Of a DNA stretch of 64,000 nt, positions 4,109-63,886 are shown one piece after another. The position numbers and the translations under genes are program-made. How positions within the stretch are numbered: position 1 is the stretch's first letter; each line of letters begins with the position of its first letter. The DNA lies in assembly GCF_029784135.1 (NCBI RefSeq), contig NC_073746.1, forward strand, positions 91,028,564 to 91,092,563, in the 5' to 3' direction. Under the pieces are notes generated by a model. It was not told the origin of the DNA and searched no databases. It saw only the letters and a list, made by a program, of their open reading frames with translations. This stretch comes from Toxorhynchites rutilus septentrionalis. Lineage: Eukaryota > Arthropoda > Insecta > Diptera > Culicidae.

Positions 4109-5165
4109 GTTTTTTTTCCAAAAACGTTTATTAATCAGACTCAATTACTTATTATCTAACGTTTACAGAGTCAAATTTCACCTTAAAATATAACTTATTT
4201 TCTATATTATTAAGACTAACAATTTAATAATAACTGAATCCAACACTAGATTAATTGGACAGGATTAGGATTTAGGACTAGGATGGAGCGAGTGGGGTAG
4301 TTTGGTTTGATGAGGAGGGAAGGGATCAAACAGAGATATCATTTCTTTTGATAAATTGGTAAAGAGAAAGCATAAGGTTGAGGTCGCGACTAGCTAAGAT
4401 GTCTCTAACCGGTAAGTCAGATTGCCTTCCTAGTGCCCTGAGTGAATCCGATAGGTGAGCCCTGGCATTATGAAAGTTTCTACAGGACCAGACCACATGC
4501 TCGATGTCATGATAACCATCACCGCAAACGCAAAAATTACTATCAACGATCCCGATGCGATACAGATGCGCATCTAACAAGTAATGATTAGACATGAAGC
4601 GTCACGCGAATGAAGTCCCGACCTACATTCAATCCGTTGAACCATGCGTTTGTCGATACCTTGAGAATAATTGAATGTAACCAGCGACCCATATTATCTT
4701 CACTTCAATTGTGTTGCCAATTGCAGAGTACATAACTACGAGGAGTACAAAAAAAATCATGATAGGTTATTGGTCGCTCAAAAATGGTGCCTTCCAAATC
4801 CCCGAGCTCAGCTAACGAGTCCGCTTTCTCATTACCTGTAATGGAGCAATGGGCTGGGACCCAGGCTAATGTAATCCTATAAGATTTTTCCACTAGTCTA
4901 CCTAAGAGCTGTCTTATTCTCATAAGAAAATACATGAGGCTCTTATAGATTTTATCGAACGGATAGCTTCTATTTAGCTGAGGCTATCTGAAAAGATAAA
5001 ATAGTGATCAATCGACAAGGATTCAATTTTCTCCAAAGCGCGAAATATTGCGGCAATTTCCGCAACGTACACCGAGCAGGGATTTCTCAACCTATAATAG
5101 GCACTGAAGTTTTCGTTAAATATGCCAAAACCAGTGGAGCCATGAATGCATGATCCATTCAGATT
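4109..5165 (-). mobile_element. 5'-truncated non-LTR retrotransposon with RNase H (I-like)
   Basis: The element reads right to left. It keeps the RNase H domain, the cysteine/histidine-rich C-terminus and an A-rich 3' UTR ending in AATAAACG and a poly-A run at about 4109-4120. The left end in reading order (near 5165) is an abrupt 5' truncation, as expected for target-primed reverse transcription. A related copy lies at 13874-14541. RNase H domains in non-LTR elements are typical of the I clade and relatives; the exact clade is inferred. Confidence 0.75.
4326..5160 (-). pseudogene. RNase H and C-terminal domain of a LINE ORF2, decayed
   Basis: The RNase H signature residues can be followed on the minus strand: NGSCIHGSTGFGIF (first acidic site, with N in place of D before GS), AEIAAIFRALE, FSDSLS, and GNEKADSLA after LAWVPAHCS. 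Beyond this comes a CVCGDGYHDIEHVVWSC cysteine/histidine motif, then DLPVRDILASRDL and the stop at 4326. The frame is broken by a TAG directly after FSDSLS, by a stop after CNWQHN, and by a shift between about 4595 and 4705. The copy at 13874-14541 is open through the same region and serves as a guide to the original reading. Confidence 0.78.
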
Positions 5166-5984: not shown

Positions 5985-7000
5985 CTTAAATTGTTGATGA
6001 TTTTTTTTTAAATAATATTTCTCTATACACCATAATAAGATGCACTTTCAGTATTTTTTTCAAATTTTCACCCCGAAGCTATCGAGAATGGCGTGAAAAA
6101 CATTGAAATGTATGTTTTTTACTATAATTTTTTGTTGAACCTCATAGAGGTTCAAAAAAATAGTAAAAATTTTGTAAATACAATATTTTGCATAGAGCGG
6201 GTGATTTGGTTTGGGGGCTTTTTGCTTCCTCACCCAACCAGGTCCTCTCTCTAACATTATTTTCAGTAAAATCTTGCATAAAGATATCTGATCATTTTTT
6301 TACAATTGACTCCGAATTTGTAGCAAAATGATTCTTTCTAGGCGTTCGTTGTAATTATGGCTAGAAAAATCCACACAAAGTTGTTTGGACGTCACGGAGC
6401 TGCGATTGTAGTCCTTTGGACTGGATGTCGTTTAATAACGATTCTATTCGAGCAATCCAGCGATCGATGCCGGATGAGTTATTCCTGCATCCTAGATTGG
6501 AACGGTCCAAAATTTATTTGAAAGAATGACTTTTATTCAGAGGATTTGCACTTTCCAATAAAACAACAATCGTTGAAAAATATTGAACAGCGCTGCCTTA
6601 AAACGCCTTTTTTAAATGTGAAATTAGTAATCGAACAGCGACAGTTTGCAATTTTTTTGAATTTGGAGTGAAGCCAATCATATGCCTTGAATGGAAATGT
6701 TCTGCTATCTCTCGATTCTGAAAACGATAACCGATAGTATACGAATTTGAAATTGAGCTCAATTGGGTTATGAGCATCAGAGCATTCCATTAAGAAATGT
6801 TATCGTTATCTCAATCCATATTGTAACTTGTATCATTAGGGCTAGGATTCAGTCTGTCGATATTCATAAATTAATTTCGAATCGAAACAAAGAAAATTAA
6901 ATCAAAAGTGATGTTTTGAAACTGTCTGAATCATGTAATCATTCAAAAAGAAATCATTTGTAGAAATAAACACACTTTTAATAAACCATTGATGCACGCC
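5985..7000. other. Unassigned non-coding stretch
   Basis: No gene or recognised repeat is seen. It is A/T rich with scattered poly-T runs. Confidence 0.35.
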
Positions 7001-9000
7001 GTAATGATCACCTAATTTCGAATCGATTCCCGTGGTCTGTGCATGCTTCGATAAACGACTCAGCAGCGAATGCTGTTTGTCGTAGCTGTTAGGATAGTTA
7101 TGAATGGGTGCAACAGTTTCAATATCTTACCGCTTAGATGTGAACGTTGCATCCCGAGTGCAATATTAATCCACTTCTTTTACGTAACTCACGTCACGAG
7201 TGTTGGATGGTGTCATTTACACTCTCGTTCACATTGTAGCTGTTACTGCTGAGAGGGTCTTCGGAGCACAATCAGTTATGAATGGCACTCTGCATGAATT
7301 GAGTTGCTCCTTAATGGGATTACTCCAGATGTGAGGGGACCTCGAACGGCGCCCCCTTCCTTCGACTTATTTGCATATTCGAAAGCTCAATAACTGCCAG
7401 CTGTTACGCTGTCTTACTATCTTACAAAAACACAGTCAGTGACTGGTAGTTACTCGGTTGAAATATCATCGGTTATCGAGTGTTTACAGCAGCAGGATTC
7501 AATCACACCTACCGCACATATATTGTACTTGAAATGGTATTAATGTAGAAGATAGGAGCCTGCTTGGGTGTACTATTAGAGTGACGAATGTTTGCTTAAT
7601 TTGTATGACATTACTGGAAAGACGACTTGTGGTTCTCCAGACAACGACGACTCTGATCAGATTGAACTCATATTGCGAAAAGCAATATAATTTCAACAAA
7701 TTCCAATTCCATTAGAATATTTGAAATTTGTGATATAATCAAGTTAATTGAATTTTTGTGTCTCTGTAACTTACTCCCAATCAAGAACCTTGTTTCTGCT
7801 GGAGCTTGCAGCAATCGAACGAGCAAACGAGACCTCTGTATTTGCCCTAGCACAAATTTGGCAAAATTGATTATTGATTCTTGATGCAGCCATATTTATT
7901 GCTTTATCATTTCTTGCAGACGCACCCGCACCAATAAATTACTCTTTTTCACCCGAATACATCTACATGAAAACAAAATCGTATTAAAGGAAAAAAAATC
8001 GTCTTTCGTCGACAAAAAAAGTTTCCCATCTTTTTGGTAACGAAAAAGCCCTCTGGCGCACAGTTGGATAACGACGAACGAACATCCCTCCGACATACGC
8101 AGTTTCGCGTCTGCCGTCGTTTAAGGATACGCAGTAAAACTCGTCTGACGATGGCGATCAAGCCGGCGATAAAATGGCTTCGAAAAGATAAAAATATTCA
8201 AATGGCTTCGCAGCAGAACCACCACCAGTGAGTGCACAATGTTGTTTGCACAAAGAATAATATTTCCATTTGTCTTGCTTGCTGCTCTGCTGTCTGGAGG
8301 CGCCCTTGGGATGGACACTTAGTTGATCGAAATGGCGTGTGAATCCTTGTGTGTGCGGGGGGCTGGAAACAACGACGATGGAAGGCTGATCTCGCACAGA
8401 ACGATGCAGCAGCATATAGAGAGCTGTTGGAAATATATTATACGGAGCCATTTCTGTAGATTAAATTCACATCAAATGACGCACCAGTCGAAGTGTGCTG
8501 CTGCACTTCAGAGGTCGACCATCTAAGTGAATTGGATAATGCAATCATTTCAAATTAATAAATCTGAAACGGTGGATAAACAACAAAGGCACTTGTATTC
8601 TGAGTACGTAGTTTTGCTCTCTATTGCTTGGTGGAGTAAGTTGGTAAGACAATGTTCTTATTGTCTTTCCGGGTTTACACAGTTTCATCCATAATAGCCG
8701 TCGTTTGAAGATACACTGAATTGCACTGGAGAGTGGCAATCCAATCTAATTGCGTTGTATGCAAATCCAAATACAGTACAAGAAATTCCTTTAGGTGTAT
8801 ATACGTCTTCAGATCCCACATATAGCCCATTGAACTGCTATTAGCAAAATTGTATTGCATTCGAAAAAAGGGCTTCATGTTGCTTCGAGGCGTTCTGTTT
8901 CGATTCTCAACAGTTAAATAATTTTGAGAAACATATTTCAGGTAAAAATTCCTACAAGTTTGATTGTAGTCAAAAAGTGATATTAACATAAAGTATTATA
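7001..9000. other. Non-repetitive upstream sequence
   Basis: Base composition is more balanced than in the surroundings, notably 8040-8520, and I see no transposon ends or copies elsewhere in the window. Short open frames occur on both strands but none has recognisable domains. It may hold regulatory DNA or a 5' non-coding exon; that is a guess. Confidence 0.3.
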
Positions 9001-13499: not shown

Positions 13500-14812
13500 A
13501 AAATTATATTGCTGTTCCAATGCTCTGTACGTGTGCCCGACACGGGATACTTCCTATTGGGATGCAGTTGACCCTTAATCAGCAACGCCCCCCTAGTGTG
13601 TACCTCATATCTAGCGTGGTGCGTCTTTCTCGACTCGAGGAATCCAGGATAGAATGGTCACTAACCGGCGCAATCATCAGTTCATGTAGAGTTGTCATGA
13701 GCGGTACAACCTTTGGCTCTTGTTGAATGATCAGTGGACTGCACAACCTTTGGCCTGTGTATCTGTAAAGAGTGTGTGTATGTATTGCCGCGACTAAGTA
13801 AAAGTTTATCGATCGGGTATCCCTCCTATCCGGGGACCCTCCTTAACACGGGGACACAACGAAGGAAACATCATTAAACGTTGATATCGGCGTTCCTGAG
13901 GAACAGGTATAGATGAAGCAGGAGATCAGGATCACGGCTACCTAAGATATCCCGGACGGGGATCTCCGATTGTCTGCCTTGTGCTCTCAGTGCTCTAGAG
14001 AGCTGAGAGCGAGCAGTATGGAACCGGATACACGACCAGACAACATGCTCGATGTCGTGGTAGCCATCGCCACAATCACAAAGATTGTTTGCTGCGAGCC
14101 CAATGCGATAGAGATGCGCGTTTAGGTTGTAGTGATTGGACATAAGCCGAGATATCACGCGAATGAAATCACGACCTAAATTCAATCCCTTAAACCAAGC
14201 ACTCTTCGAGACTTTAGGGATAATCGTGAGTAACCAACGACCGAACTCATCTTCACTCCACATGCGCTGCCAACTTACGAGCGTGTACTGACGAGGAATG
14301 TGGAAAAATTCATTATAAGCAATTTGCCTTTCAGAAAGTGTGCCTTCTAGAGCGCCCACCTTAGCTAGCGAGTCCGCTTTCTCATTCCCCGGAATCGAAC
14401 AATGAGAGGGAACCCATGCTAAGGTAATCTTGAATAATTTTTCGACCAAAACACTCAATAGTTGACTTATTCTAGTTAGGAAATAAGATGAGCGTTTATC
14501 AACCTTCATTGAGCGGATTGCCTCTATTGAGCTGAGACTGTTCATAATGAGGAATCAGATATCTAGATTTCAAATACTCTAATCTGTTATTTTCATTCTC
14601 GGAATATTGTATTCCATATATTGATTTTGGTATATAAAATCAGTTCCTCATCAGGAACCAAATAGATAGATATAAACATATATAATATTTTAAATTTAAC
14701 ACTAGAATTAATGAAAAATGATTATATATACTTGTAACAATACAGATAGGAGTTTGGCTCCTTTAAACTTATGTAACTGAGCCTGTAAAAATAAACGATT
14801 TAATTAAAAAAA
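13500..14812. mobile_element. LINE insertion with probable 5' inversion
   Basis: The coding part (13874-14541) reads on the minus strand, but the DNA directly to its right (about 14542-14812) looks like a LINE 3' UTR on the + strand, ending GAGCCTGTAAAAATAAACG and a poly-A run. That arrangement, inverted 5' segment then normal 3' segment, is what twin priming produces. The left boundary is uncertain (somewhere in 13490-13860), and no target-site duplication was found. Confidence 0.5.
13874..14541 (-). pseudogene. RNase H and C-terminal domain of I-like LINE ORF2
   Basis: About 220 codons are open on the minus strand, starting inside RNase H at NSLSSIEAIRSM. Visible motifs are ITLAWVPSHCSIPGNEKAD, the WSEDEFGRWL segment, GRDFIRVISRLMSNHYNLNA, and the CDCGDGYHDIEHVVWSC cysteine/histidine box. 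It ends naturally at the stop near 13876 after RNADINV. The first two acidic sites of RNase H are missing because the copy begins abruptly at about 14541. No stop or frameshift interrupts the kept part, so this copy is younger than the one at 4326-5160. It cannot be functional without the endonuclease and polymerase. Confidence 0.82.
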
Positions 14813-24591: not shown

Positions 24592-25680
24592 ATAGGGTTG
24601 GGGAAAAAGAAATGTCGTATTTCTGATCGAAATTTGACGCTTTATTTAGCATACTAAAAATTATCCAATTTAGATCAAATATGCGCCGTTTTTTTTCGCA
24701 AACTTGTTGCCATTTAGAAGGTAACTTCATTATCCCCCCCTTTATAAAACCCCCTTCCTTGTTTGCAAAAAACTCCGACAGCCAGTTTTCGCAAGCCTCT
24801 TTTGAGGCCAACTTAGTATCACCAAGAGCGGTTTACATGGACCGGAAGAGATGATAATCATTTGGAGCCAGGTCCGGACTATATGGTGGGTGCAATAGGA
24901 CATCCCATCCGAGCTCCCGTAGCTTCTGGTGGGTCATCAAAGATGTGTGAGGCCGAGCGTAGTCCTGGTGAAAAACAACACCATTCCTATTGATCATTTC
25001 TGGCCGCTTCTGGTCAATCGCCTGCTTCAAACGGTCAAGCTGCTCACAGTAGAAAACCGAGTTGAGGGTCTGGCTATAGTTGAACAGCTCATAGTGGATG
25101 ATTCCCTTCCAATCCCACCAAAAACACAGCAAAACCTTCCTGGCCGTCAATCCGGGCTTGGCGATGGTTTGGGCCGGCTCATCGCGCTTCGACCACGACT
25201 TTTTTCGCTTTAGGTCGTCGTACGTGATCCACTTTTCATCATCAGTCACCATCTTCTTCAAAAATGGGTCGAGTTCGTTCCGTTTCAGCAGTGCATCGCA
25301 GGCGTTGATTCGGTCTTAAATATTTTTTTTGTGTCAACTCGTGTGGCACCCATACATCCAGCTTTTTTTGGAATCCAATCTTCTGCAATTGGTTCCAACG
25401 GTTTTATGGTCAATACCCAGTTCGCGAGTGCTCACATGCCGGTCTACTTGGATGATTTCAACGATTTTATCGGTTTCTACGACGATTGGCCTACCAGTAC
25501 GGGGTGTATCTTCGACAGCCACTACACCAGAACGAAATCGTTCAAACCAACGCTGTGCTGTGCGAATCGTTACAGTATCGGGTCCATAAACTACACATGT
25601 TGGTGCTTCTTAAGAAATACAACCATCTCTGTTTTCTCCGTTGAAAATATAATGCCTCGTTTATAGTCCATTCAGATAAA
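24592..25680 (-). mobile_element. Mariner transposon, degenerate
   Basis: The left edge has a TA followed by GGGTTGGGGAAAAAGAAATG, a mariner-type terminal sequence. The same ends recur at 35894 (GGTTGAGGAAAAAG) and 37594. The transposase gene reads right to left. The matching terminal repeat beyond the start codon was not found. Confidence 0.75.
24640..25671 (-). pseudogene. Mariner transposase pseudogene (DD34D)
   Basis: Read on the minus strand from ATG 25671, the family order is intact: MDYKRGIIFSTE, a stop/frameshift, YGPDTVTIRTAQRWFERFRS, VEDTPRTGRPIVVETDKI, a break, then VTDDEKWITYDDLKRKKSW (first D), FWWDWKGIIHYELF, VVFHQDYARPHTS (second D), and LHPPYSPDLAPNDYHLF (third D). The C-terminus continues in another frame with CENWLSEFFANKEGGF and GGIMKLPSKWQQV. 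All three catalytic aspartates are present. There are at least three frame breaks (near 25593, 25334 and 24830), so the protein cannot be made. The YSPDLAP motif and the D spacing identify the family firmly. Confidence 0.9.
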
Positions 25681-26454: not shown

Positions 26455-26805
26455 AAGTACGCTTTAGGGAAACATATTTCGGCCCGCACAACGACAAGAG
26501 AGTACAAAAGTACTCAACACCAAAAAATACCACCGACTTGCATGTATTTGCAAAGCGGATTCCCCTAGGCACATTATTTTTGAAGTCCGTGTTAGGGAAA
26601 CACAGCTCAATGGGAAAAAAATACCCCCAACTTGCATGTTCTGACAAAGCGGATTCCCCCAGGCACATTGATTTGGAAGTCCATGTTACGGAAACATAGC
26701 TCAGTGGGAACAAAAATACCCCCGACTTGCATGTATATTTGCAAAGCGGCTTTCCACAGGTACATCGATTTTGAAGTCTGTGTTGGGGAAACCGTATATC
26801 GGGCC
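26455..26805. repeat. ~95-bp tandem array in copy C
   Basis: About three and a half units. Each has GTTAGGGAAACAnA, then AAAAATACCCCCGACTTGCAT, then TTTGCAAAGCGG, then ACATTGATTTTGAAGTC. The same unit builds the arrays at 27755-28130, 28434-28660 and 63075-63605. Confidence 0.85.
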
Positions 26806-27754: not shown

Positions 27755-28136
27755 ACGGTTTCCCTAACACAGACTTCAAAACCAAGCAGCCTTGGGGGAA
27801 TCGGAATTGCAAATACACGAAAGTAGGGGGAATTTCGTTCTCTCCGAAATGTATTCCCTAACACAGACTTCAAAACCAAATAGCGTTGGAAAAATTGTCA
27901 TTGCAAATACATGAAAGTAGGGGGAGCTTTTGTTCCCACCGAAATGTGTTTCCCTAAAACCGACTTCAAATCCATGGAGCATGGGGAAGTTGGCATTGCA
28001 AATTCATGCAAGTCGGGGGCATTTTTGTTCCGGCTGAAATTTGTTTCCCTAACACACTTCAAATCCATGGAGCGAGGGGGAGTTAGCATTGCAAATACAT
28101 GCAAGTCGGGGGCATTTTTGTTCCGATTAAAATATG
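27755..28136. repeat. ~95-bp tandem array in copy A, part 1
   Basis: About four units in the opposite orientation to copy C: TTTCCCTAACACAGACTTC, AATTGGCATTGCAAATACATG, then GGGGGCATTTTTGTTCC. Confidence 0.85.
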
Positions 28137-33433: not shown

Positions 33434-34193
33434 TTGACGTAGGGCTACGTCTTTGATTTCTACATAGGGGGGATTTCAAAATTTACGATATATCTTGTAA
33501 TATAATATATATCATTAAACGGCAAATTTATCCAACGACTTTTCAGCTGGAGACATCAACAGCGGAAATAGTAAAACAAATGAGCAATTCAACGAATGAT
33601 AGAGTGTAGAGTGTTTTGCGAACGAATGCAAAGGTAAACCATGTATTATGCATTCTTTCTTTCAGATTGGTTCCCGTGAATGTTGTATGCAACACAAGAT
33701 TGTGTGCAATAATTTGTTCTATCAAACAAATTCGACATCCAGTCAATGTGTAGAAATAAGGGTGATGTAGGAGGTGGAGTGGGTTAGTAAGATGGAATTC
33801 CATAGAAATTCATTATTTCATTAACATCTTTATATCAGCGACACCAAGGTGGTATTGTCAGTGTGTGACGTAAAATATAGTTTGCAAATGAACATTATAT
33901 CACCGAGAAAGCTACTACTCCCGATGACTTACAATACCATAGCTATTCATTAAAAATAAAGCATCTTTATGATTTCATGGGTATTTTGACTCAAAATATC
34001 ACGAAATCGTAAGTATTTAAGAAAGAAACATTTCTTCTTGATATTCAATGTAATCAATGACGACATTTTTTTTTTGTTTACCAAACCGTTTGTTTACCCT
34101 TTTTTGTTTTTTTTTTGTTTTGCAAGGGTTAAAAAAAACAAATTTTTGAACAATGAAAATTACAGTCATACGTCAATTACAGTCCTACGTCAA
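33434..34193. mobile_element. TTGACGTAG family, copy with plain interior
   Basis: The left end is TTGACGTAGGGCTACGTC; the right end is AGTCCTACGTCAA at 34181-34193. CATAGGGGGGATTTC near the left end parallels ATATGGGGGG and TATACCGGGG at the same place in copies A and 51594. No tandem array and no gene are present. Confidence 0.6.
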
Positions 34194-34720
34194 ACTTACG
34201 TCCGTGCTCCTGGGTTCAGACCCATTCATATTTCAATGTAAAGATTTTTATTCATTATTAGGAAATTTGAATACTTTTTGAAATATTTCTTTAAATTTCC
34301 TCATTCGGAATTATTTACCATTCAGGTAAACTTTCTATCCAGATAAAAGGTATTCGAGTGATCTTGTTTCTCGTGAACCCTTTAGACTTTTGCTTTATTG
34401 TAATACCTACTTTTATCTCGACTGCTTGAAATTGACAGCTTTATTCTATGTGTATGGTCCACGTGATCCAGATGACTGGATAATGTTTGAAATCGAATTT
34501 AAAGGTCCATCATTTATACAAAATTAATAATTTAATTAATAGAAGAGTGAAACTATTTATCTTTTTCATAGTTTTAAAAATTATAGCACCCAACATTTCG
34601 TTTTTGCTCTACCCAAATATACGAGTTTTTGGTGCATAAATGTGATCATTTTAATAACGCTTATCAGAATTTCATAAAAATATACCTTCTTATTGAATAT
34701 AGCTGTAAATGGTACAATGT
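34194..34720. other. Unassigned intronic stretch
   Basis: No gene or repeat is recognised. Confidence 0.35.
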
Positions 34721-36640: not shown

Positions 36641-37538
36641 AAGGGTGTCACATCAAATTGCATCACGGAAAAAACGCTGTAAAAATTTAATTTTTAGGAA
36701 TTATATCTTCAGCTTTCGCTTATAATCAGATAAGAGTGTATAGATCACGTTGGCCATGCTGCACTGTCAATTTTTCTTAAATTTGGAAAAATGTCGTCGA
36801 ACGAAAAAGAGCGTCGTGAATTAATCCTGTGCACTCATTTCGAGAATCCGGAGTTGTCACATCGGGACATCGGTAAGATGCTGGGAGTCGTCCAATCCAC
36901 GGTCAGCAGAGTACTAAAACGATACTTCGAGAACCTAACCATTGACCGGAAGGTGAAGAACGGCAAAAATGGATGCTCCGTCAGTGAAAAAGATCACAAG
37001 CGCGTAGTTAAGCAGTTTAGACGTGATCCGAGAAGTTCGGTCCGGGATGTCACCAATAAGCTGAATTTGTCAAGTTCATTCGTCCAGCGGACCAAGCAGC
37101 GGGAGGGCCTGCGTACAAACAAGGTTCAGAAGGCTCCTAACCGCGACGAATGGCAAAACATGGTGTGGAAGACGCTTCGTGCCAAAGGAAATGAACCCGC
37201 CCAACGCGCCGGAGCTTCGCCCAATAGAGAAATATTGGGCGATTATGAAGCAGGCCCTCCGGAAGAACCCAAAAGTTGTCAAATCGGAGACGGACTTCAA
37301 GAGAAAATGGATTTCTGTTCAAAAAAAACTAAAACCTGACGTTGTACAGAACCTTATGGACGGGGTAAAGAGGAAGGTGCGAGCATACGGGCTTGGGCTC
37401 GAAGTATGAATAAAAAGAAAATGCCAAAAGTTGTTTAATAGTTTTTATTTTACTGTCTAAAATTTTCAAAAGGATCGGTCTACTGGGCGAATTTCTACAG
37501 CGTTTTTTCCGTGATGCAATTTGATGTGACACACCCTT
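36641..37538 (+). mobile_element. ITmD37E copy 2, internally deleted
   Basis: Flanked by TA (36639-36640 and 37539-37540). The terminal repeats match copy 1. The body is nearly identical to copy 1 but about 398 bp shorter, because the sequence jumps from AAGACG (copy 1 about 1336) to CTTCGTGCC (copy 1 about 1734). It is inserted in the 5' UTR of a mariner. Such deletion derivatives with intact ends can move if transposase is supplied. Confidence 0.93.
36791..37409 (+). pseudogene. ITmD37E transposase, deletion derivative
   Basis: The ATG at 36791 opens MSSNEKERRELILCTHFENP and the helix-turn-helix region with no stop; copy 1 has a TAG in place of the E codon here. After QNMVWKT the deletion removes the first two catalytic aspartates and shifts the frame, so the remaining residues to 37339 are out of frame. 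The true C-terminus (PKEMNPPNAPELRPIEKYWA to GLGLEV, stop at 37409) is open in the other frame from 37179. A DNA-binding-only protein of about 125 family residues plus a foreign tail could be translated, and might act as a repressor; that is inference. Confidence 0.88.
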
Positions 37539-38054: not shown

Positions 38055-39800
38055 ATCTTTCTAAGTTTAACAAATTAGAAAAAAATAAGCAATCATACAT
38101 TCTTGCATGTTTCTTGCTTTCAATTTCTCCGAGCGTTCTCATCACGACATCATCCATCAATCGTGAAAAAACTCGTGATTCCAAACTCCACAATAAAACT
38201 AGATTTTCTTTGGAATCATACAATCGATTTCAATCAGGGACGTGAAATCAAATTTGATTTTTCCTAGTATTTGGGAGAAAAGAAAAATCTTCCAATTATT
38301 TTTCATCGCGGCTTTCGATACTTTTTTTCAGATCAGACACATCCTTCTCAAAAAAAAAAAAAAAAGAAATAATATGAATTTAACCCTCCGATCGGGTATC
38401 TGTCGAATAACTTTTCATATCCTTTTATGCAAATTCGAACGAATTTTGATTGAATCGCGTGGATAAAATGGATAGCTTCGGGTCGTCGGGGGCTCGTGTG
38501 CTTACTTGATGTCGTTTCATTCTGCTGCCTTAGCCGTCGCATCGATTTTTGTCGACAAGAGTATTCAATTCTCTGTAATGTAAGAAACACAACGATGTCG
38601 TATGGTGCTAATTACGACGCTAATCGACAGCGCCACAACGCGTGACCTAGCAGGAAACGGTAGCGTCAGCGTTATGTATGTGTCGCTAATTAAATGCATT
38701 AAAACGTCGCTCTTCATTATTTATGAGGAGCGTCGCAGCTCACCACGTATTTGCAACGGGATAAACATTTCAAAATGTGAAAGGTACGCGAGGGTTAATT
38801 TGCGAGCTCTCTCGCTTTCTATACGATGTGTGTAAAGGTGCAATTAAAAAAATGAGATGTAAGATTACTCACAGACAGATAACAAGTTATAAGTGATTGA
38901 AACGTATGTCTGCGCCTCGGACATGTGCATACGAGTTCTTCGCAAGACAGCTTATTCCTTCTTCGAAAAATCATTGATTGCTTTTACGTAGGGGTGGTAA
39001 CCGGCGTTAATAATAAAATTGGGTACTTCTTATCGTAACTTTCTCCAGTTTTCGCAGGCTTAGCGTTATCCGGATGGAAGTTAACGAAGATATCCGCTGC
39101 TCTGCAGATCTATCAAACGTGTTGGTTACACTTTTATTGTGTACAAGACAGTGCTAACCACAGATTCCATCAATTTTGCTATTTGTGATATACTTTTTCG
39201 ATTTGATTCGTTCGTTGGGCGTCGGTGTTGTGCTGGGGAAATTTATGAGGCAAAAAATGTAATATGAAGAATCATTCTTCAAAAGAAATTCTATCACGTC
39301 CGATCATACTCAACCACATTTGAATTGAAATTGTTTTCAGTGTTACCACATGTGAACATCATGGTCACAAAGGCCAATGAATCGAGGCCAAATATTCAAA
39401 TCCCCCGCTATCATACGAGTAATATAACCAAACACAAGGCAACGCCTTGAACATTACTTTATATAGCATGGATATGCCACTTTGCACCTTTTTCAATTGA
39501 AGCAATGTTGAGGTTTGTAGCTTGCCCAAGTGTTATTGATACCAAAATCGACATCGATTGCATCCGTTGTTTTATTGCGAAGAGGATTTTCCCTTTGGGT
39601 AACACTATAAAGGGTAAAATCGGTCCGGAGCACATTCACGGGAGCACCAGAAAATGTGTTAGTAGTATCGTACTAAATACTGATATGAAATCTGTAGACA
39701 TAAAATATATATTTAGGATAACAGTCATGTGAAATACAGAAGTTGACCAAAATATTATACTCGAATCAAAAAAGACGGGTGGGTAATGTCGGGGACATAA
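38055..39800. other. Non-repetitive intronic DNA
   Basis: 38580-38830 has more balanced composition and several TAATTA/TAATCG-type words (GCTAATTACGACGCTAATCG, GCTAATTAAATGCATTA). No exon is supported. It could be an enhancer; low certainty. A poly-A run lies at 38350-38365. Confidence 0.35.
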
Positions 39801-39946
39801 CCGGAGTGACGTAGGACTATACAAAGGGGACAGCTTTTGTTAAATATATATTTTAAATATATTGTTTTATTTTGAATACGTGAATACCTACCTATCTACC
39901 TGAAAAATGGATTAGTTTACTGTTTACTCTTTATGAATATGTTGAT

Positions 39947-39962
39947 GGTTCTGAAAAGAACC
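39947..39962 (-). terminator. Histone 3'-end stem-loop (H2A pseudogene 1)
   Basis: On the minus strand GGTTCTTTTCAGAACC: a perfect 6-bp stem with a TTTC-type loop, the signature of replication-dependent histone mRNA 3' ends. Confidence 0.88.
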
Positions 39963-40262
39963 TTTGGTGTTGTGTTTTTGTTATCACTCGATATTCCCAT
40001 CTTGTTCGGTTAAACCTTCCTGTTTAGCTATTGCGTTTGCCACTCGCCACAGCTTTCACAGTTGGAAAATTTCTTCCCATCCAGCTTGTGACATGTTGTT
40101 CAGTAAATTACATTTAATGCGACGTGCCGGAGAAACACTTTGCCACTCACTGAAACTAATTGTTGCCTTGATGAGCGCTGAACCGAAGCTGCTCTGTTCT
40201 TGATGCGGGTTTTCTGATTGTCGTGAGCAGCTTTGCAAGCCAACTCGAGCACTCCGACGGCC

Positions 40263-40268
<6 letters not shown>

Positions 40269-40293
<25 letters not shown>

Positions 40294-40436
40294 CTGTATT
40301 ATAGTGACTTTCAACGCTTCTGGCTGGTTCGTCACTTTTCCTTCCATTTTGGAAGAATGTCGGGATTGAGAATTGAACTCGTGATCTTGAGCGTGAGAAG
40401 TATGGATGTTACCTCCACGCCAGATCGGCTCCACTA
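40269..40436 (-). mobile_element. SINE family 3 copy in the H2A pseudogene
   Basis: tRNA-like head at the right end (GATCTGGCGTGGAGGTAACA as A-box region, GATCACGAGTTCAATTC as B-box region). The 3' end at the left closes in a 24-base poly-T as read on the + strand. A perfect 11-bp target duplication CGGCCGAAACT flanks it (40258-40268 and 40437-40447). Confidence 0.92.
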
Positions 40437-40679
40437 CGGCCGAAACTCTATAATCGCTGTTAGGTATACTGGTGCTCCGGCACCAATCCGTTCGGCCTAG
40501 TTACCCTTGCGGAGCAATCAGTGAATGCGACCAACAGGGAACTGGAGACCCTGCACGGTTCGAGTGAGACTTTGCCTTTCCCTTAACTTGTCCTCTTTTG
40601 TTACGTCCACGATGCCGATGCCGTACAACCACACGGGTTTGCGGTTTGAAAGAAAATAAGATATTTTTTTGGGGACCGC

Positions 40680-40692
40680 GTGTTTTATACTC
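40680..40692 (-). promoter_or_regulatory. TATA box of H2A pseudogene 1
   Basis: GAGTATAAAACACG on the minus strand, about 70 bp before the lost start codon, the usual place for a histone gene. Confidence 0.6.
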
Positions 40693-40848
40693 TAGCGGTA
40701 CACACTCACAGGATAGAGACAAATCGGCAGACTCAGCCAGAGGGGCGAGTCCAACGAGACGAACGAATGAGCGTTAAAAGGGAGCGATGGCAAAAAAATA
40801 CATTCATTACGATTTGTTCGCTCGTTGGATTCACATGCAGGCTAAAAA

Positions 40849-41098
40849 GGGTCCTTTTCAGGATCACAAAAATATCTTCAATCTAAAGAGTTTATTGTTT
40901 TGTTATCACTCGATATCCCCATCTTGTTCGGCTAAACCTTTCTGTTTAGCGATTGCATTTGCCACTCGCCACAGCTTTCACAGTTGGAAAATTTCTTCCC
41001 ATCCAGCTTGTGACATATTTTACAGTAAATTATATTCAATGCGACGTGCCGAAGCGCCACTCAGTGTCGCATTGGAGGCGATTTCAACCTGCAATTGA
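40849..41098. pseudogene. Third histone-like 3' piece
   Basis: GGTCCTTTTCAGGATC at 40849-40864 is a histone-type stem-loop in + orientation with one stem mismatch. Right of it, 40895-41075 repeats the downstream half of pseudogene 1 (ATCACTCGATA-CCCCATC, TTGCCACTCGCCACAGC, CATCCAGCTTGTGACAT) at high identity. No histone coding frame is kept here. It looks like a duplication of the H2A unit's 3' half next to the 3' end of another, oppositely oriented histone gene. Confidence 0.5.
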
Positions 41099-41460
41099 AC
41101 ATTTGCGATGACAGTGGTACAGTGTCGACTTTCAATGTGGGGTCATAATTTGGATCTCTATGTTTACAAAAATGTCCAACTAAATAAGTCGCATTACATG
41201 TCCGTCCAATTAGCTAAATGTCGAACTATTTGTAAATTACTGTACTTTCAATCTGGAAACAATTTAAGAATTAGTGAAAATTGAATAATCAGGAAAGTCC
41301 CCAACTATCAATAAGCTCAGAACAACTGCCAAATTCACATACTCATTAGATCCTGGCAAACAAATTATGAAAAAATCAATTTGTGTTTTATTATTATTTT
41401 GGATATTATTTTAGAAAGCATTGAACTGTATCTCCTAAACTCTTTTTTGGAAGGTTTAAT

Positions 41461-41476
41461 GGCCCTGAAAAGCGCC
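41461..41476 (-). terminator. Histone 3'-end stem-loop (H2A pseudogene 2)
   Basis: On the minus strand GGCGCTTTTCAGGGCC, a histone stem-loop with one stem mismatch. Confidence 0.8.
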
Positions 41477-41906
41477 TTGTTTTATGGAATGGTTCCAATT
41501 TAGAAAACTTAGTACTCGTGGTTTGGAAAAAAACCATTTCGAACGCCCTCGATGCCGCCTTGTTCTGGATTTGCCACCAAAGCAGTTTGTATAAAGAACA
41601 AACTTTTTTCTTCTGCTACCTGATGCCGTTTTGCGATTGCGTTTGCCACTCGCCACTCGCTGCAACTGCCTGTTGTTGTCTTGATGTGTTCTGTTCTGAA
41701 TGCGGTTTTTCTTATCATCGCGAGCAGCTCTACCAGCCAACTCGATCACTTCGGCGGCCGAAACTATATAACGCCGGCTAGGTGGACTGGTGCACTGGTA
41801 CTAACGTGCTCGACCTAGCTACCCTTGCGCGGAACTCCAGATCAACACGGTTCGAGCGGGATTTTGCCTTTCCCTTCACTTTTCCTCCTTTACTATGTCC
41901 AGACAT
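41461..41906 (-). pseudogene. Histone H2A pseudogene 2
   Basis: ATG at 41906 opens MSGHSKGGKVKGKAKSRSNR, a near-exact H2A N-terminus (canonical MSGRGKGGK). The next stretch is scrambled by small indels. The frame returns at 41749 with IELAGRAARDDKKNRI, the H2A alpha-2/alpha-3 segment (ELAGNAARDNKKTRI). Beyond that the protein is not H2A-like, yet a histone stem-loop closes the unit at 41461-41476. It has no intron and no poly-A. Shared changes with pseudogene 1 after KTRI suggest both come from one already degenerate H2A unit. H2A normally packages DNA in nucleosomes; neither copy can make it. Confidence 0.85.
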
Positions 41907-41994
41907 GGCTGCTTGGGTTGGTTTGTTGATGTGTTGTGATGCGAACCGATGTGGTGTACGGTTTGAATGAGAATGATCGTTACGGCAGCGGAGC

Positions 41995-42180
41995 GGGGAT
42001 TTTTAAGCTGACTGGCTGGCTCGAGAATTACGCATGTGTGAGACTGCGACCAATGTTTCGTTCATCTTTCCTTTTTCCTTTCCAATCGTGCTTCATTCTA
42101 TTTCGCTGCTGCTCTGGTTGCCCGTTTTGGTCGGTACGATTTGAGGAGCACAAAATGGACCAATCAAAAATGGGCACATA
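41995..42180 (-). promoter_or_regulatory. Promoter region of H2A pseudogene 2
   Basis: On the minus strand a weak TATA-like TTAAAAAT (about 42003) sits roughly 95 bp before the ATG. GATTGG-type CCAAT boxes lie at about 42162-42167 and ATTGGTC near 42050. This arrangement is like insect core histone promoters. Confidence 0.45.
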
Positions 42181-42429
42181 GTGCATTTTGACAATGCTTG
42201 ATATTTCACAATTATTCAATTATTTATCTCAAGAAAAATGAAATGTTATTCGTTATGATATATGCGTAGATATATTTCCTATCAATTGATGCAAAAACCT
42301 TTGCGATCTATTGAGAAATGCTCGAGTTATAAGCGTTCTAAATCTTGCATTTTTTCCTACTTGTTCAGCGCCTGGATATCCATTTCACTCCCTATATCTT
42401 CCGGTTAGACGTAGTCCTACGTCAAAAGA

Positions 42430-43190
42430 ATGAGGTTATTAAGATTCAAGCTTATAAGATTCAAGCTTCATAATATCGCTCCTGTTGGCATACCATTCCC
42501 GTTCTCCCTGCGTTCATTTTTGGTACCGTTAAGCCCATTCCAACAATTTAGTTCACATCGCAGCTGTTAGTTTTGGATTTTTGCTGGCTATTGTCATTAG
42601 ACCTTAATTTTTACAAATATCCGACGTACCGTTTTGTCTCAAATTTCGAACACTTCATTTTTAAATCAAATTTACTAAACTTCAATAATTGATTAATAAA
42701 TATTCTGACATTCCTTGTGGTATAGGTAAGAGGCACGTTGGAAAGAACAATTTCGATATTGTGTTTTCCGTTTTCCTGTCTGTGAGCGGCAATTATGACC
42801 GTCTTGTGAAACCAATTGGTTGTGATCGAAGGTTGTATTATAAAATGTAATCATGACGAATTTCATACGAATTTTTCATGACTCGACTGGCCATTGACCG
42901 CACCATTTCAGATTGCAGTTATGGGTGTAAAAACATTGGCCATTCAGTCAACTTACACATTTAAAATATTCAAATAAAAAAGTCAGAAAAGTTTTGAAAA
43001 AGAGCTCAATTTGAAAAAAAAATACCTAAAAAATTTAGTTCAAATAATGAAGTGTAGGGAATTGAATTTTCATTAAAATAATGCAAGAAAAAATGAAAAA
43101 ATTACACAGAAAAATATGTTTGGTTTTTAATTCACTCATTTTTCTCAAAAACAAAATTTTCGAAAAATATAAAAAAATATATAAATAGCC
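42430..43190. other. Unassigned intronic stretch
   Basis: No gene is recognised. The end merges into the A/T-rich repeat shared with 11400-11570. Confidence 0.35.
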
Positions 43191-51535: not shown

Positions 51536-51837
51536 GAATGTGGAGAGAGTCGTATGAACGATGTGCGCTAACGATGGATTCCAGATCATTGTTTTGACGT
51601 AGGACTACGTCTTTCATTTCTATACCGGGGTGTAAAATCAAAGTTTCGAAAACGAAAGCGTTACGCCGGAGACCGAGATTTTGAGCGTTAATAGCTCCTA
51701 AACAACTGAACGAAATGGTACGATAAACACTTCATTCGAAAGATAAAATGTCTACGCGTTATATACTTGTTACTTTTTGATCCAAAAACTTGTTTCAATA
51801 GTCTTAAAATTGCTTTCAAAACAGGCTATTGAAATCA

Positions 51838-51881
51838 CCAATCGGTATATAAGCGAGCGCCGCTCGGAAATCCACTCAGTT
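51838..51881 (+). promoter_or_regulatory. Core promoter: CCAAT, TATA, initiator
   Basis: CCAATC (51838-51843), TATATAAG (51846-51853) and TCAGTT (51876-51881). The A of the initiator is 32 bp after the first T of the TATA box, which is the canonical spacing for arthropod RNA polymerase II promoters. Downstream transcription would run into the 198-bp repeats. A 70-residue frame crosses the site (51777-51989) but shows no known domain. Confidence 0.65.
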
Positions 51882-52070
51882 CTAATTGAACAGCGATTGG
51901 AGCATGTTGTCGCTGTTGCGGTGAAGCTCTTTATTTATCATGAAAGCGCGGATGAACGGTGTCACCAAGAGCCTGTTTGTGCACCCTAGGCCAGAAAGGA
52001 ATCTATCAGGTGGAGAGTGATGCCACAAACGGTTCCCTGGGAAGACATCGCTACACACACATACACGCGC

Positions 52071-53200
52071 GGCTATTAACAGGTGGTTATCGAGTTGGCA
52101 TTAACCACTGGTGGGCTTCCAGTATCGAGGAAAATGTGGAAATATCTAATCGTTACTGAAAATAATCTGCCAGTTTCTTTGGGAAATATATTCATGTGAA
52201 AGAGTTTAATTGAATGTTTTCTATCCATGTAACACTGTGACCAAATACATTTGGTTTTGTGATTTTTCAATCAATCGCAATTAACAGGATAGCTTCTGAA
52301 GATTATTCGTCCCCATCAGTAGGATATTTCCGTATCCAATATTGTATGCGCCCGCAATCGATTATTGCTCAGTCGCCGAAAGTTCCGAGCTCAGAGAGTT
52401 CATTCCCCTCTAGTTTGCCTTCCAAATTGCCATCGTAAACCACACCTTCTCTCGATTCAATCACACACAAAAAGCATACTTAAGCGATATTCTGGTGGTG
52501 AGACACATTCATTTTTCGTGAGGACATCGACAAGACAACATCGTTGCCTAACGTGCTGGAGGTGGTGGACGGCGAAGGATCGACACATACACGCGCAGAA
52601 CTCTTTCCGTTAGGATGCCATTCAGCATCGAGAAAGTTCCGGAAAGATCTAATCATTGCTGGAAAATAATCTGCCAGTTCCTTTGGGAATTTTCAAAATA
52701 TATTCATGTGAAAGAGTTTAATTGAATGTTTTCTATCCATGTAACACTGTGACCAAATATGTTTCAATCAAGTGCTATTAACAGGTGGTTATCGAGTTGG
52801 TATTAACCACTGGTGGGCTTCCAGTATCGAGGAAAATGTGGAAATAACTAATCGTTACTGAAAATAATCTGCCAGTTCCTCTGGGAATTTTCAAAATATA
52901 TTCATGTGAAAGAGTTTAATTGAATGATTTCTATCCATGTAACACTGTGACCAAATATGTTTCAATCAAGTGCTATTAACAGGTGGTTATCGAGTTGGCA
53001 TTAACCACTGGTGGGCTTCCAGTATCGAGGAAAATGTGGAAATATCTAATATTTACTGAAAATAATCTGCCAGTTCCTTTGGGAATTTTCAAAATATATT
53101 CATGTGAAAGAGTTTAATTGAATGTTTTCTATCCATGTAACACTGTGACCAAATACATTAGGTTTTGTGATTTTTCAATCAATCGCAATCAACAGGATAG
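52071..53200. repeat. ~198-bp tandem repeats
   Basis: The unit contains ACAGGTGGTTATCGAGTTGG, ATTAACCACTGGTGGGCTTC, CAGTATCGAGGAAAATGTGG, AATAATCTGCCAGTTCCTTT, ATTCATGTGAAAGAGTTTAA and CCATGTAACACTGTGACCAA. Copies begin at about 52079, 52781 and 52979; the last two are 198 bp apart. A partial copy lies at 52655-52780, and a non-repeated block of about 360 bp (52290-52650) separates the first from the rest. Confidence 0.88.
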
Positions 53201-53551
53201 CTTCTGAAGATTATTCTTCCCCATCAGTAGGATATTTCCGTATCCAATATTGGATGCATAAAACCTTGTGCCTCCAACGTAACGCTCTCGTTTTCGAAGT
53301 TCTCCAAATATTCATTCATTCAGAATGAATTCAGATTCAACTTCATACAAATGATCTCTAAATCTACGATAGTCCTACGTCACCCTTGCGGTTATACCAT
53401 AGATATAACCCACTTTCTGTTTTTATCTTCGAATCACAATTCTCGCGTCATTGTGCAGACACCTTCTATGATTTTGTTAACGCTTGCGCACTGAATCAAA
53501 ATTGATGACAATAACGTCATTTTGTAAACTGAGCAAGTGTGATTTGAAGTA

Positions 53552-61510: not shown

Positions 61511-61584
61511 GAAACAATAACAACAAAAAAAGCAACAATAGTGTGGTGCATTCTTGATATAAAAATTACTGTAAATTTTGTATA

Positions 61585-62167
<583 letters not shown>

Positions 62168-62364: not shown

Positions 62365-63886
62365 TTGACGTGGAACTACCTTAGCTTAGCAATCATTTGT
62401 TTGTATTGATTGAGGTTTTGATTGAATGAAACAATTTCCGAATTCATTTTAATTGCAGTGTGAGTGAAAAGAATGGATAAATTCCATGTAAGGTCAATTC
62501 ATTGTGATAGATTATTCTTCGTTACAAGTAAATTTAATGACAGTCCTTTTACGTTTGATGTGATTTCTAGGACAAAATATATGAACGGAAGAATTATCGA
62601 GCGATTATTTTATTTTACATTTCTCTCTGAAGTTTGCATCTCTCAAGTGTACGTACTTCTCGAACCGCGAATTTGCTGGATTTGATGAACTTCAGGCACT
62701 CAGTTTCGATTTTGTCGTCGTCGTACGTCGAACGTATATTGTTTAATCAATAGGCGTTATCGCAGCAAACGATTATCAACATTTTTCATAATCATCAAAT
62801 GGTATGCGTAGAAACTCAGTGAGTAGAGGATATGAAGGCATATCCTTCTATGCAACCTTGAATAACCGAGCCAAAGCGTTGTGTTCGTAGCCGCTTTTGT
62901 AATCCGTGTTAGGAGAACGCTTTTTGGAATGCAAAACAAAACATGCGGGTGCAGAAGTATCCCCGGTTTGCATGAATCAACAACTTCAACTTCTACTTTT
63001 ATACTGCTTTAGACTTGAATGTTCATTCGCCTCTAGCGTCTGCACGATTTACCCAAGTTCTTAACTCTAGAAGACCATGCTAAGGAAACATATTCTAGAC
63101 TGTACAAAGGCAAGCGAGTATAAAAATTGTTCGCATTTTGCATTTATTTGCAAAGCCGATTTCCCCAGACACCTTGCCAATTTCCACATGCTCAATGGAT
63201 TTGAAGCCTGTGTTAGGGAAATACATTTCAAACGGAACAAAAATACCCCCGACCTGCATGAATTTGCAACGGCAATTTCCACACGCTCCATGGATTTGAA
63301 GTCTGTGTTAGGGAAACACATTTCAGTCGGAACGAAAATACCCCCGACTTGCATATTTGCAATGCTGATTTCCCCCAGGTACCTTAGTTTTGAAATCTCT
63401 GTTAGGGAACACATTTCGGTGGGAACAAAATCTCTCCCTACGAAAGTATGTATTATGTATTTGCAATGCCGATTTCTCCAACGCTGCTTGGTTTTGAAGT
63501 CTGTATTAGGGAACATATTTCGATGAGAACAAAAGTCCCCCTACTTCCATGTATTTGCAATGCCGATTTCCCCAAGGCTGCTTGGTTTTGATGGCTGTGC
63601 TGGGGAAACCGTAAATCGGGCCAATCAAAACGAATCAGTTAGAGCGTTTAGATAACTCTTAACATTTTACAATTATTCAATTGTTTATCTAATGAAAAAT
63701 AACATTTTATTAATTGCGATAGATGCGTAGAAATATTCCCTATCGATTTATGCAAACATCTTTCCGATCCAGTAAGAAATGTTTGAGTTATAAGCATTCG
63801 AAATCTTGCATTTGTTTCTGCATGTTCTGTGTTTTGGTTTTCATTTTACCCCTTATATATTCCGGTTAGACGTAGTCCCACGTCAA
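62365..63886. mobile_element. TTGACGTAG family, copy B (most complete)
   Basis: Left end TTGACGTGGAACTACC, right end GACGTAGTCCCACGTCAA at 63869-63886. The left flank GGGTGGGTTATAACTATGAC is conserved in reverse at other copies. The left 120 bp matches the right end of copy A in reverse; the right 270 bp matches copies A, C and 39807. The centre holds the 95-bp array. No protein is recognised. Confidence 0.78.
63075..63605. repeat. ~95-bp tandem array in copy B
   Basis: Five to six units: GTTAGGGAAACACATTTC, GGAACAAAAATACCCCCGAC, TTTGCAATGCCGATTTC, then GGTTTTGAAGTCTG. Both strands happen to be open for 149 codons across it because of the periodicity; this is not a gene. Confidence 0.88.

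Follow-up and report, generated by a model that had tools for sequence, protein, structure and literature searches.

The locus and its histone features

The window, i.e., the whole 64-kb stretch of Toxorhynchites DNA that was analysed, contains at 39768-42427 an element with two H2A pseudogenes, each with a promoter region upstream and a histone stem-loop behind it. The features identified are the following (positions of the window):

39768-42427, minus strand: whole element, very probably a non-autonomous Helentron (HINE) with histone cargo; T-runs at the bounds (A-runs on the plus strand)
39782-39802, minus strand: 3′ hairpin GGTTATGTC...GACATTACC, then CCCACCCGTC and a T-run
39807-39819, minus strand: 3′ subterminal repeat TAGTCCTACGTCA, an inverted version of the 5′ repeat
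39947-39962, minus strand: histone 3′ stem-loop behind copy A (Rfam RF00032, 41 bits)
39976-40139, minus strand: second copy of the H2B downstream spacer (R1)
40202-40608, minus strand: H2A copy A, pseudogene with TGA and TAG stops and frameshifts, and with a SINE inside
40269-40435, no strand assigned: tRNA-like SINE (class by eye), target-site duplication ACGGCCGAAACT at 40257-40268 and 40436-40447
40612-40838, minus strand: shared divergent H2A/H2B promoter with truncated H2B side; TATAAAA at 40683-40689
40850-40865, plus strand: inverted histone stem-loop, the 3′ end of a lost H2B gene, with its own AAAGAGTTTA; one mismatch to the consensus, below the Rfam cut-off
40898-41061, minus strand: H2B downstream spacer (R1′), related to 39976-40139
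41461-41476, minus strand: histone 3′ stem-loop behind copy B, then AAAGAGTTTA; one mismatch to the consensus, below the Rfam cut-off
41645-41906, minus strand: H2A copy B, pseudogene with an internal deletion and a TAG stop
41907-42150, minus strand: promoter region of copy B, with TATA-like TTAAAAA at 42000-42006 and a TCAAACCG start region
42153-42427, minus strand: conserved 5′ end, about 270 bp, including CCAATC/GATTGG
42408-42423, minus strand: 5′ subterminal repeat GACGTAGGACTACGTC, palindromic (7-base arms), with TTTT before it at 42424-42427

The two H2A remnants reported in the initial annotation are real. In tblastn searches with a typed canonical H2A sequence as query, copy A was matched on the minus strand at 40443-40598 (E 1.6e-15), with additional pieces between 40202 and 40608, and copy B on the same strand at 41645-41906 (E 1.4e-14). 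Canonical H2A gave a better fit than H2A.V, and a PDB search with the 25-aa open stretch at the start of copy B gave H2A chains (best E 1.1e-6); a Pfam search of the short open pieces of the H2A copies returned no match. For H2B, H3 and H4 coding sequence, no credible tblastn match was found in the window. A weak tblastn match (8/20 residues) at 39976-40139 and 40898-41061 had been considered as an H2A C-terminus, and this reading was withdrawn because a histone array at C3:233.6 Mb (see below) has a related spacer downstream of H2B.

The TCAAACCG start region is common to both copies, accompanied by TATAAAA in copy A and by the TATA-like TTAAAAA in copy B; in the latter, a stretch of about 65 bases ahead of the start codon can be aligned with H2A of the C3 array. 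Three stem-loops with one or fewer mismatches to the consensus are present in the element, compared with none in 40 simulated windows (first-order Markov). RF00032 matches were obtained at 39923-39967 (minus strand, 41 bits), 41436-41481 (minus strand, 24 bits) and 40845-40891 (plus strand, 16.6 bits, E 1), of which only the first passes the Rfam cut-off of 34. A promoter and a stem-loop had been assigned to each H2A: both copies indeed have them, but only the stem-loop of copy A exceeds this cut-off. Behind each of the three stem-loops lies AAAGAGT, present also at the intact H2A of the C3 array, which resembles a histone downstream element. The traits of replication-dependent H2A genes (no introns, TATA promoter, stem-loop and downstream element) can all be found here, in pseudogenes only.

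The SINE interrupts copy A and is missing from the seven other copies of the element that were fetched; because of it, the element measures 2.65 kb in the window, compared to 2.5 kb otherwise. Both stops of copy A (TGA and TAG) and the TAG of copy B are common to all eight copies compared (L001, the one in the window, to L008), indicating that H2A was dead before these copies spread, and the copies examined are not expected to yield any H2A protein. It may be argued that the cargo is nevertheless favoured, its promoters or stem-loops acting in transcription or RNA binding, given that the window copy, one of a family present at thousands of genome places, has kept recognisable TATA boxes, start regions, stem-loops and downstream elements. 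We regard this as distinctly unlikely, considering that the coding parts are dead throughout the eight copies, that two of the three stem-loops fall below the Rfam cut-off, and that the high likeness among copies (98.6-99.8% mutually for L002-L008 and 97.6-98.1% for L001) alone accounts for the conservation. The reading of the cargo as dead passengers is preferred.

Ends of the element and classification

The bounds were set with the seven other genome copies, which place them at 39768/9 and 42426-42433, agree with the element span to within 1-6 bases and then diverge; the right bound of 42427 is set by the T-run. The bounds initially given (39807..42425) were corrected accordingly. Read on the minus strand, the element starts with TTTT-GACGTAGGACTACGTC and finishes with TAGTCCTACGTCA, the hairpin, CCCACCCGTC and the T-run, its termini being TTTTGACG... 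and ...CCCACCCGTC plus T-run. The inverted repeats TGACGTAGGACTA and TAGTCCTACGTCA are subterminal, the former belonging to the palindrome with 7-base arms and the latter, on the left (3′) side, being followed by 33 nt before the T-run. Seven of the eight copies start with TTTT at the 5′ side and one with TATTT. By fold energy the 3′ hairpin is weak (12, 30, 15, 5 and 53 of 300 shuffles fold equally well).

Insertions are found in T-runs, with flanks that differ among the eight copies and without a target-site duplication beyond the Ts. At L008, the promoter-B region of one copy has received a second copy in opposite orientation, and L002, which is uninterrupted, represents the paralogous empty site: the insertion took place within an A-run, without duplication. 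Short target-site duplications (T-run plus one or two bases), suspected by eye from four window copies, were rejected on this ground and because the extra 3′ bases are part of the H2A element in eight genome copies.

As had been stated in the initial annotation, the ends belong to a family with other copies in the window, where six 5′ and five 3′ ends were counted. The patterns used for these counts, which were written from these very ends, gave no match in 40 (5′) and 100 (3′) simulated windows; the 3′ pattern demands GGTT and ACCCAC after the repeat, and five window 3′ ends fit it. The conserved 5′ end is 74.5-77.8% identical to three other window copies. Homology among the window copies ends after the first ~270 bp, and the histone promoter sequence starts further in. 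The block with CCAATC, initially taken as a sign that the promoter side belongs to the element, does belong to the element's own 5′ end in four window copies, but lies just outside the histone promoter. None of the other window copies of the ends carries H2A. The last 60 bases of the H2A element are only 57.9-66.7% like the other four window 3′ ends; as the subfamily rule given in the available part of PMC4067079 is 80% over the last 60 bp, the H2A element represents a separate subfamily.

Among the relatives in the window, a sister element at 51590-53415 has the same subterminal repeats and a different interior with a 198-bp tandem repeat, and 94-95-bp tandem repeat arrays occur inside three sister elements (26522-26792, 27758-28124 and 63176-63431). 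A family-like stretch at 33434-34230 shows a related 5′ end, a doubled 3′ repeat and, by eye, a different 3′ hairpin, and speaks against the Helentron reading. The window further includes a LINE frame (13874-14554) with 41 relatives, those with an organism name all being from mosquitoes; transposase remnants, probably of mariner type, at 24833-25315 (minus strand, Pfam Transposase_1) and 36734-37339 (plus strand, helix-turn-helix families); and a (TA)97 microsatellite at 61581-61774, which appears as long YIYIYI frames on both strands.

Thomas and co-authors (PMC4067079) characterise Helentrons and HINEs by subterminal repeats that are palindromic, a stem-loop near the 3′ end and insertion into T-rich sites that are not duplicated; some copies also have repeats in the centre. 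The inverted subterminal repeats measure 12-15 bp, and for the mite families the 5′ repeat is placed 2-4 nt and the 3′ repeat 38-60 nt from the respective terminus. The 5′ spacing is found here, with TTTT before the 5′ repeat, and the 3′ spacing of 38 or more nt is reached only with the terminal Ts counted (33 nt plus T-run), as is likewise done for the Culex elements of PMC4067079. The element thus resembles HINE/DINE-1, as described there, in its palindromic subterminal repeats, 3′ stem-loop, T-rich target and lack of target-site duplication; the central tandem repeats of that group are represented by the 94-95-bp arrays of the three sister copies, and no such array was recovered in the histone-carrying copy. 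In contrast, the ends do not show the canonical Helitron hallmarks (5′ TC, 3′ CTRR, insertion between A and T). Since the structural Helentron features tested are present, the element is by structure a HINE and works like one, and we consider it very probable that it is a non-autonomous Helentron of the HINE/DINE-1 kind carrying histone cargo, spread as passenger DNA.

The initial annotation had described the element as TIR-bounded, which would correspond to an ordinary TIR DNA transposon or MITE that captured H2A (Pack-TIR). A 13-bp inverted repeat does lie near both ends, and Pack-TIRs are known from animals according to the accessible text of PMC8277862. However, the repeats are asymmetric and subterminal, the 3′ one with 33 nt more to the T-run; no duplication beyond the Ts is seen in the eight copies or at the empty site of L008; the 5′ repeat is itself palindromic, and a 3′ hairpin is present. 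The description as TIR-bounded therefore gives way to ends of the Helentron/HINE type, and a Pack-TIR origin is highly improbable.

Copies across the genome

A search of the whole assembly (902.6 Mb) with the whole element returned 5,618 candidates, of which the best 40 scored comprise the window itself and 39 others at 95-98%. Diagnostic 37-43-mers, with three or fewer mismatches allowed and zero matches for each reversed control, were used to count the cargo. The H2A-A pattern (a 40-mer spanning both stops) was found at 4,867 places (2,362 + 2,505), the H2A-B pattern (a 43-mer spanning deletion and stop) at 5,997 (2,972 + 3,025), and the 37-mer of the 5′ junction, which alone does not show H2A, at 8,776 (4,334 + 4,442). 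In 11 intact H2A loci tested, the best pattern matches have four or more mismatches, so that such genes are absent from these counts. Thousands of genome places carry the cargo; 4,867 copies of ~2.5 kb would amount to ~12 Mb, a rough upper figure given that many copies are broken.

The initial annotation had proposed a genome search for the ends joined to the H2A promoter and H2A at equal spacing, and the expected association was recovered. Of 100 listed exact 5′-junction places (C1), at least 40 could be paired with an exact same-strand place of H2A-B no more than 1.2 kb away, the distance from the junction being 312-318 bases in 26 of the 40 paired listed places; for exact H2A-A places, with a limit of 2.6 kb, the figure is at least 28, and at least 54 have either. 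These values are lower bounds, as the pairing used listed exact places only, and a control with positions shifted by 50 kb gave no pairs.

Both ends, in correct orientation and with the strict pattern, were identified at 18 of the 24 loci examined. For the remaining six, L037 has no element match, L036 contains the 3′ part only, and L029, L030, L038 and L043 match the element in sequence but fail the strict end pattern. L030 comprises two copies head to tail with only AAAA at the joint. In six copies drawn from the H2A-A pattern list, stretches are 94.4-100% like L002, indicating that older and younger copies exist. At L035 the element is longer (3.1 kb), and part of a second, inverted copy lies nearby.

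The same cargo between the same ends at differing flanks supports the proposal of a mobile element that carries H2A as DNA-level cargo. The absence of H2A from every other copy of the ends in the window had left room for an orphan histone unit, located beside or between unrelated insertions and not mobile as a unit, and copies of the ends without histone sequence had been named as an argument against capture; this absence is limited to the window, and copies elsewhere in the genome carry the cargo. As the same ends and cargo recur at many independent loci with differing flanks, and one copy even lies inside another, the orphan-unit alternative fails and retains hardly any probability.

Source of the histone cargo

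For canonical H2A, the best 150 of 20,767 candidates were scored, 68 of them without a stop and 82 with in-frame stops. The stop-free group comprises 64 full-length H2A, 59 of these identical to the query, and many lie in arrays judging by their coordinates; 64 of the 82 stop-bearing matches are listed with one TGA plus one TAG. The homology between copy A and the C3:233.6 Mb array, 79.7% over 423 columns, extends past the H2A ATG to 188 bp upstream. With H2A of the C2 array (L026), by comparison, the element has only the coding part in common. In the C3 array, the counterpart of element positions 1483-1584 is the 3′ flank of H2B (102 columns, 86%), and that of positions 1589-2048 is the shared promoter together with H2A (490 columns, 78.4%). 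What separates these two segments in the array, the coding part of H2B, is gone from the element, which also holds a second H2A unit. These alignments indicate that the cargo is a rearranged piece of a C3:233.6 Mb-type array, comprising the H2B 3′ end, the shared H2A/H2B promoter and H2A, with the C3:233.6 Mb array itself as candidate parental array. Homology in promoter, H2B 3′ flank and H2A, together with the missing H2B coding part, argues for capture at the DNA level. The entry of the histone piece as RNA (a retrocopy, later picked up) has precedent in fungal hAT elements that took up an H3 transcript or retrocopy (accessible text of PMC6710886), and the intronless coding parts alone cannot tell RNA from DNA entry, but the cargo includes a promoter upstream of the start codon, an opposite-strand H2B 3′ end and an H2B downstream spacer, and the promoter and spacer homology refutes this route, leaving it a negligible probability.

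Of the four H2B units seen in the C3 array, three have a sister (E63-type) element ~870 bp beyond the end of the H2B coding part:

L039:1402-2779, sister (E63-type) element in the C3 array
L041:5628-7005, sister (E63-type) element in the C3 array
L042:376-1753, sister (E63-type) element in the C3 array

This recurrence suggests that the array probably multiplied with the element inside. Read-through capture from this sister element was rejected, as its orientation is opposite to that needed; the capture may instead have involved a template switch or filler DNA, or another unit as source. At C3:233.55-233.68 Mb, seven listed intact H2A are found in open frames of 195-210 aa, compared to 126 aa in the C2 array.

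Dispersed intact H2A genes were also considered as element cargo. None of the five fetched (L021-L025, 92-98% to the query, with H2B beside L021 and L023) lies between element ends, and an end scan gave only one weak, distant 5′-like match, in L025. L022-L025 have no stem-loop with one or fewer mismatches and may for this reason be orphans or variants.

Regarding mobility, the Rep/helicase/endonuclease of an autonomous Helentron would move the element by rolling-circle copying, and the histone piece would have been taken up as DNA, decayed to pseudogenes and later spread as passenger DNA. Helitron-type Rep domains are present in the genome (132 matches among the best 150 of 1,313 candidates scored). 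For the one 1,674-aa frame examined, the 4 kb of DNA directly upstream of the Rep match contained no matching subterminal repeat.

Comparison with known elements

The closest counterpart is Helentron-Cq-32A of Culex quinquefasciatus, for which PMC4067079 reports eight copies with pieces of two histone genes that contain stops and frameshifts. Both are found in mosquitoes and combine Helentron ends with histone fragments bearing stops and frameshifts; the Culex element, however, is described by H4-superfamily and H15 hits in eight copies, whereas the Toxorhynchites element has H2A units with promoters and 3′ signals at thousands of places. Gene capture by Helentrons is documented at low copy in the same source (8 in Culex and 25 in Phytophthora).

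The amplification of a core histone gene by a DNA element, mostly inactivated, is shared with the fungal hAT elements carrying H3 (PMC6710886, as far as its text was available), of which Pseudocercospora fijiensis has hundreds of copies. Those differ in being TIR elements with an 8-bp target-site duplication, in capture of a transcript or retrocopy and in inactivation by RIP. Animal Pack-TIRs likewise hold gene pieces within DNA elements, but are TIR/TSD elements and mostly single-copy; the survey in question recorded one family in populations of flies and none in the reference genomes of insects (PMC8277862).

Among the papers listed by the literature searches, we found no histone-carrying Helentron in thousands of copies or with promoter and 3′ signals, none besides the Culex case, and no occurrence of five end sequences. 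The initial view that histone cargo would be unusual was off in that the kind has the Culex precedent of PMC4067079. As far as the literature searched goes, what is new here is the scale and the cargo extending from promoter to stem-loop, the kind being already known from the Culex Helentron.

Implications

A multigene core-histone piece, with a bidirectional promoter and 3′ processing signals, is found at thousands of sites, and a candidate parental array is located in the same genome. Histone-type promoter and stem-loop modules are thus scattered in a genome with 64 full-length intact H2A among the best 150 places scored. There is a small but real chance that some of these modules are still active, firing in S phase or binding the stem-loop protein; if so, the family could rewire replication-linked transcription, give rise to small or antisense RNAs directed at histones, or be a competitor for the machinery that handles histone RNA. 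The family lends itself to tests of the mechanism by which Helentrons take up DNA, of a possible burden on or rewiring of the host by dead histone genes whose promoters look live, and of the extent to which such copies may distort the annotation of mosquito histones.
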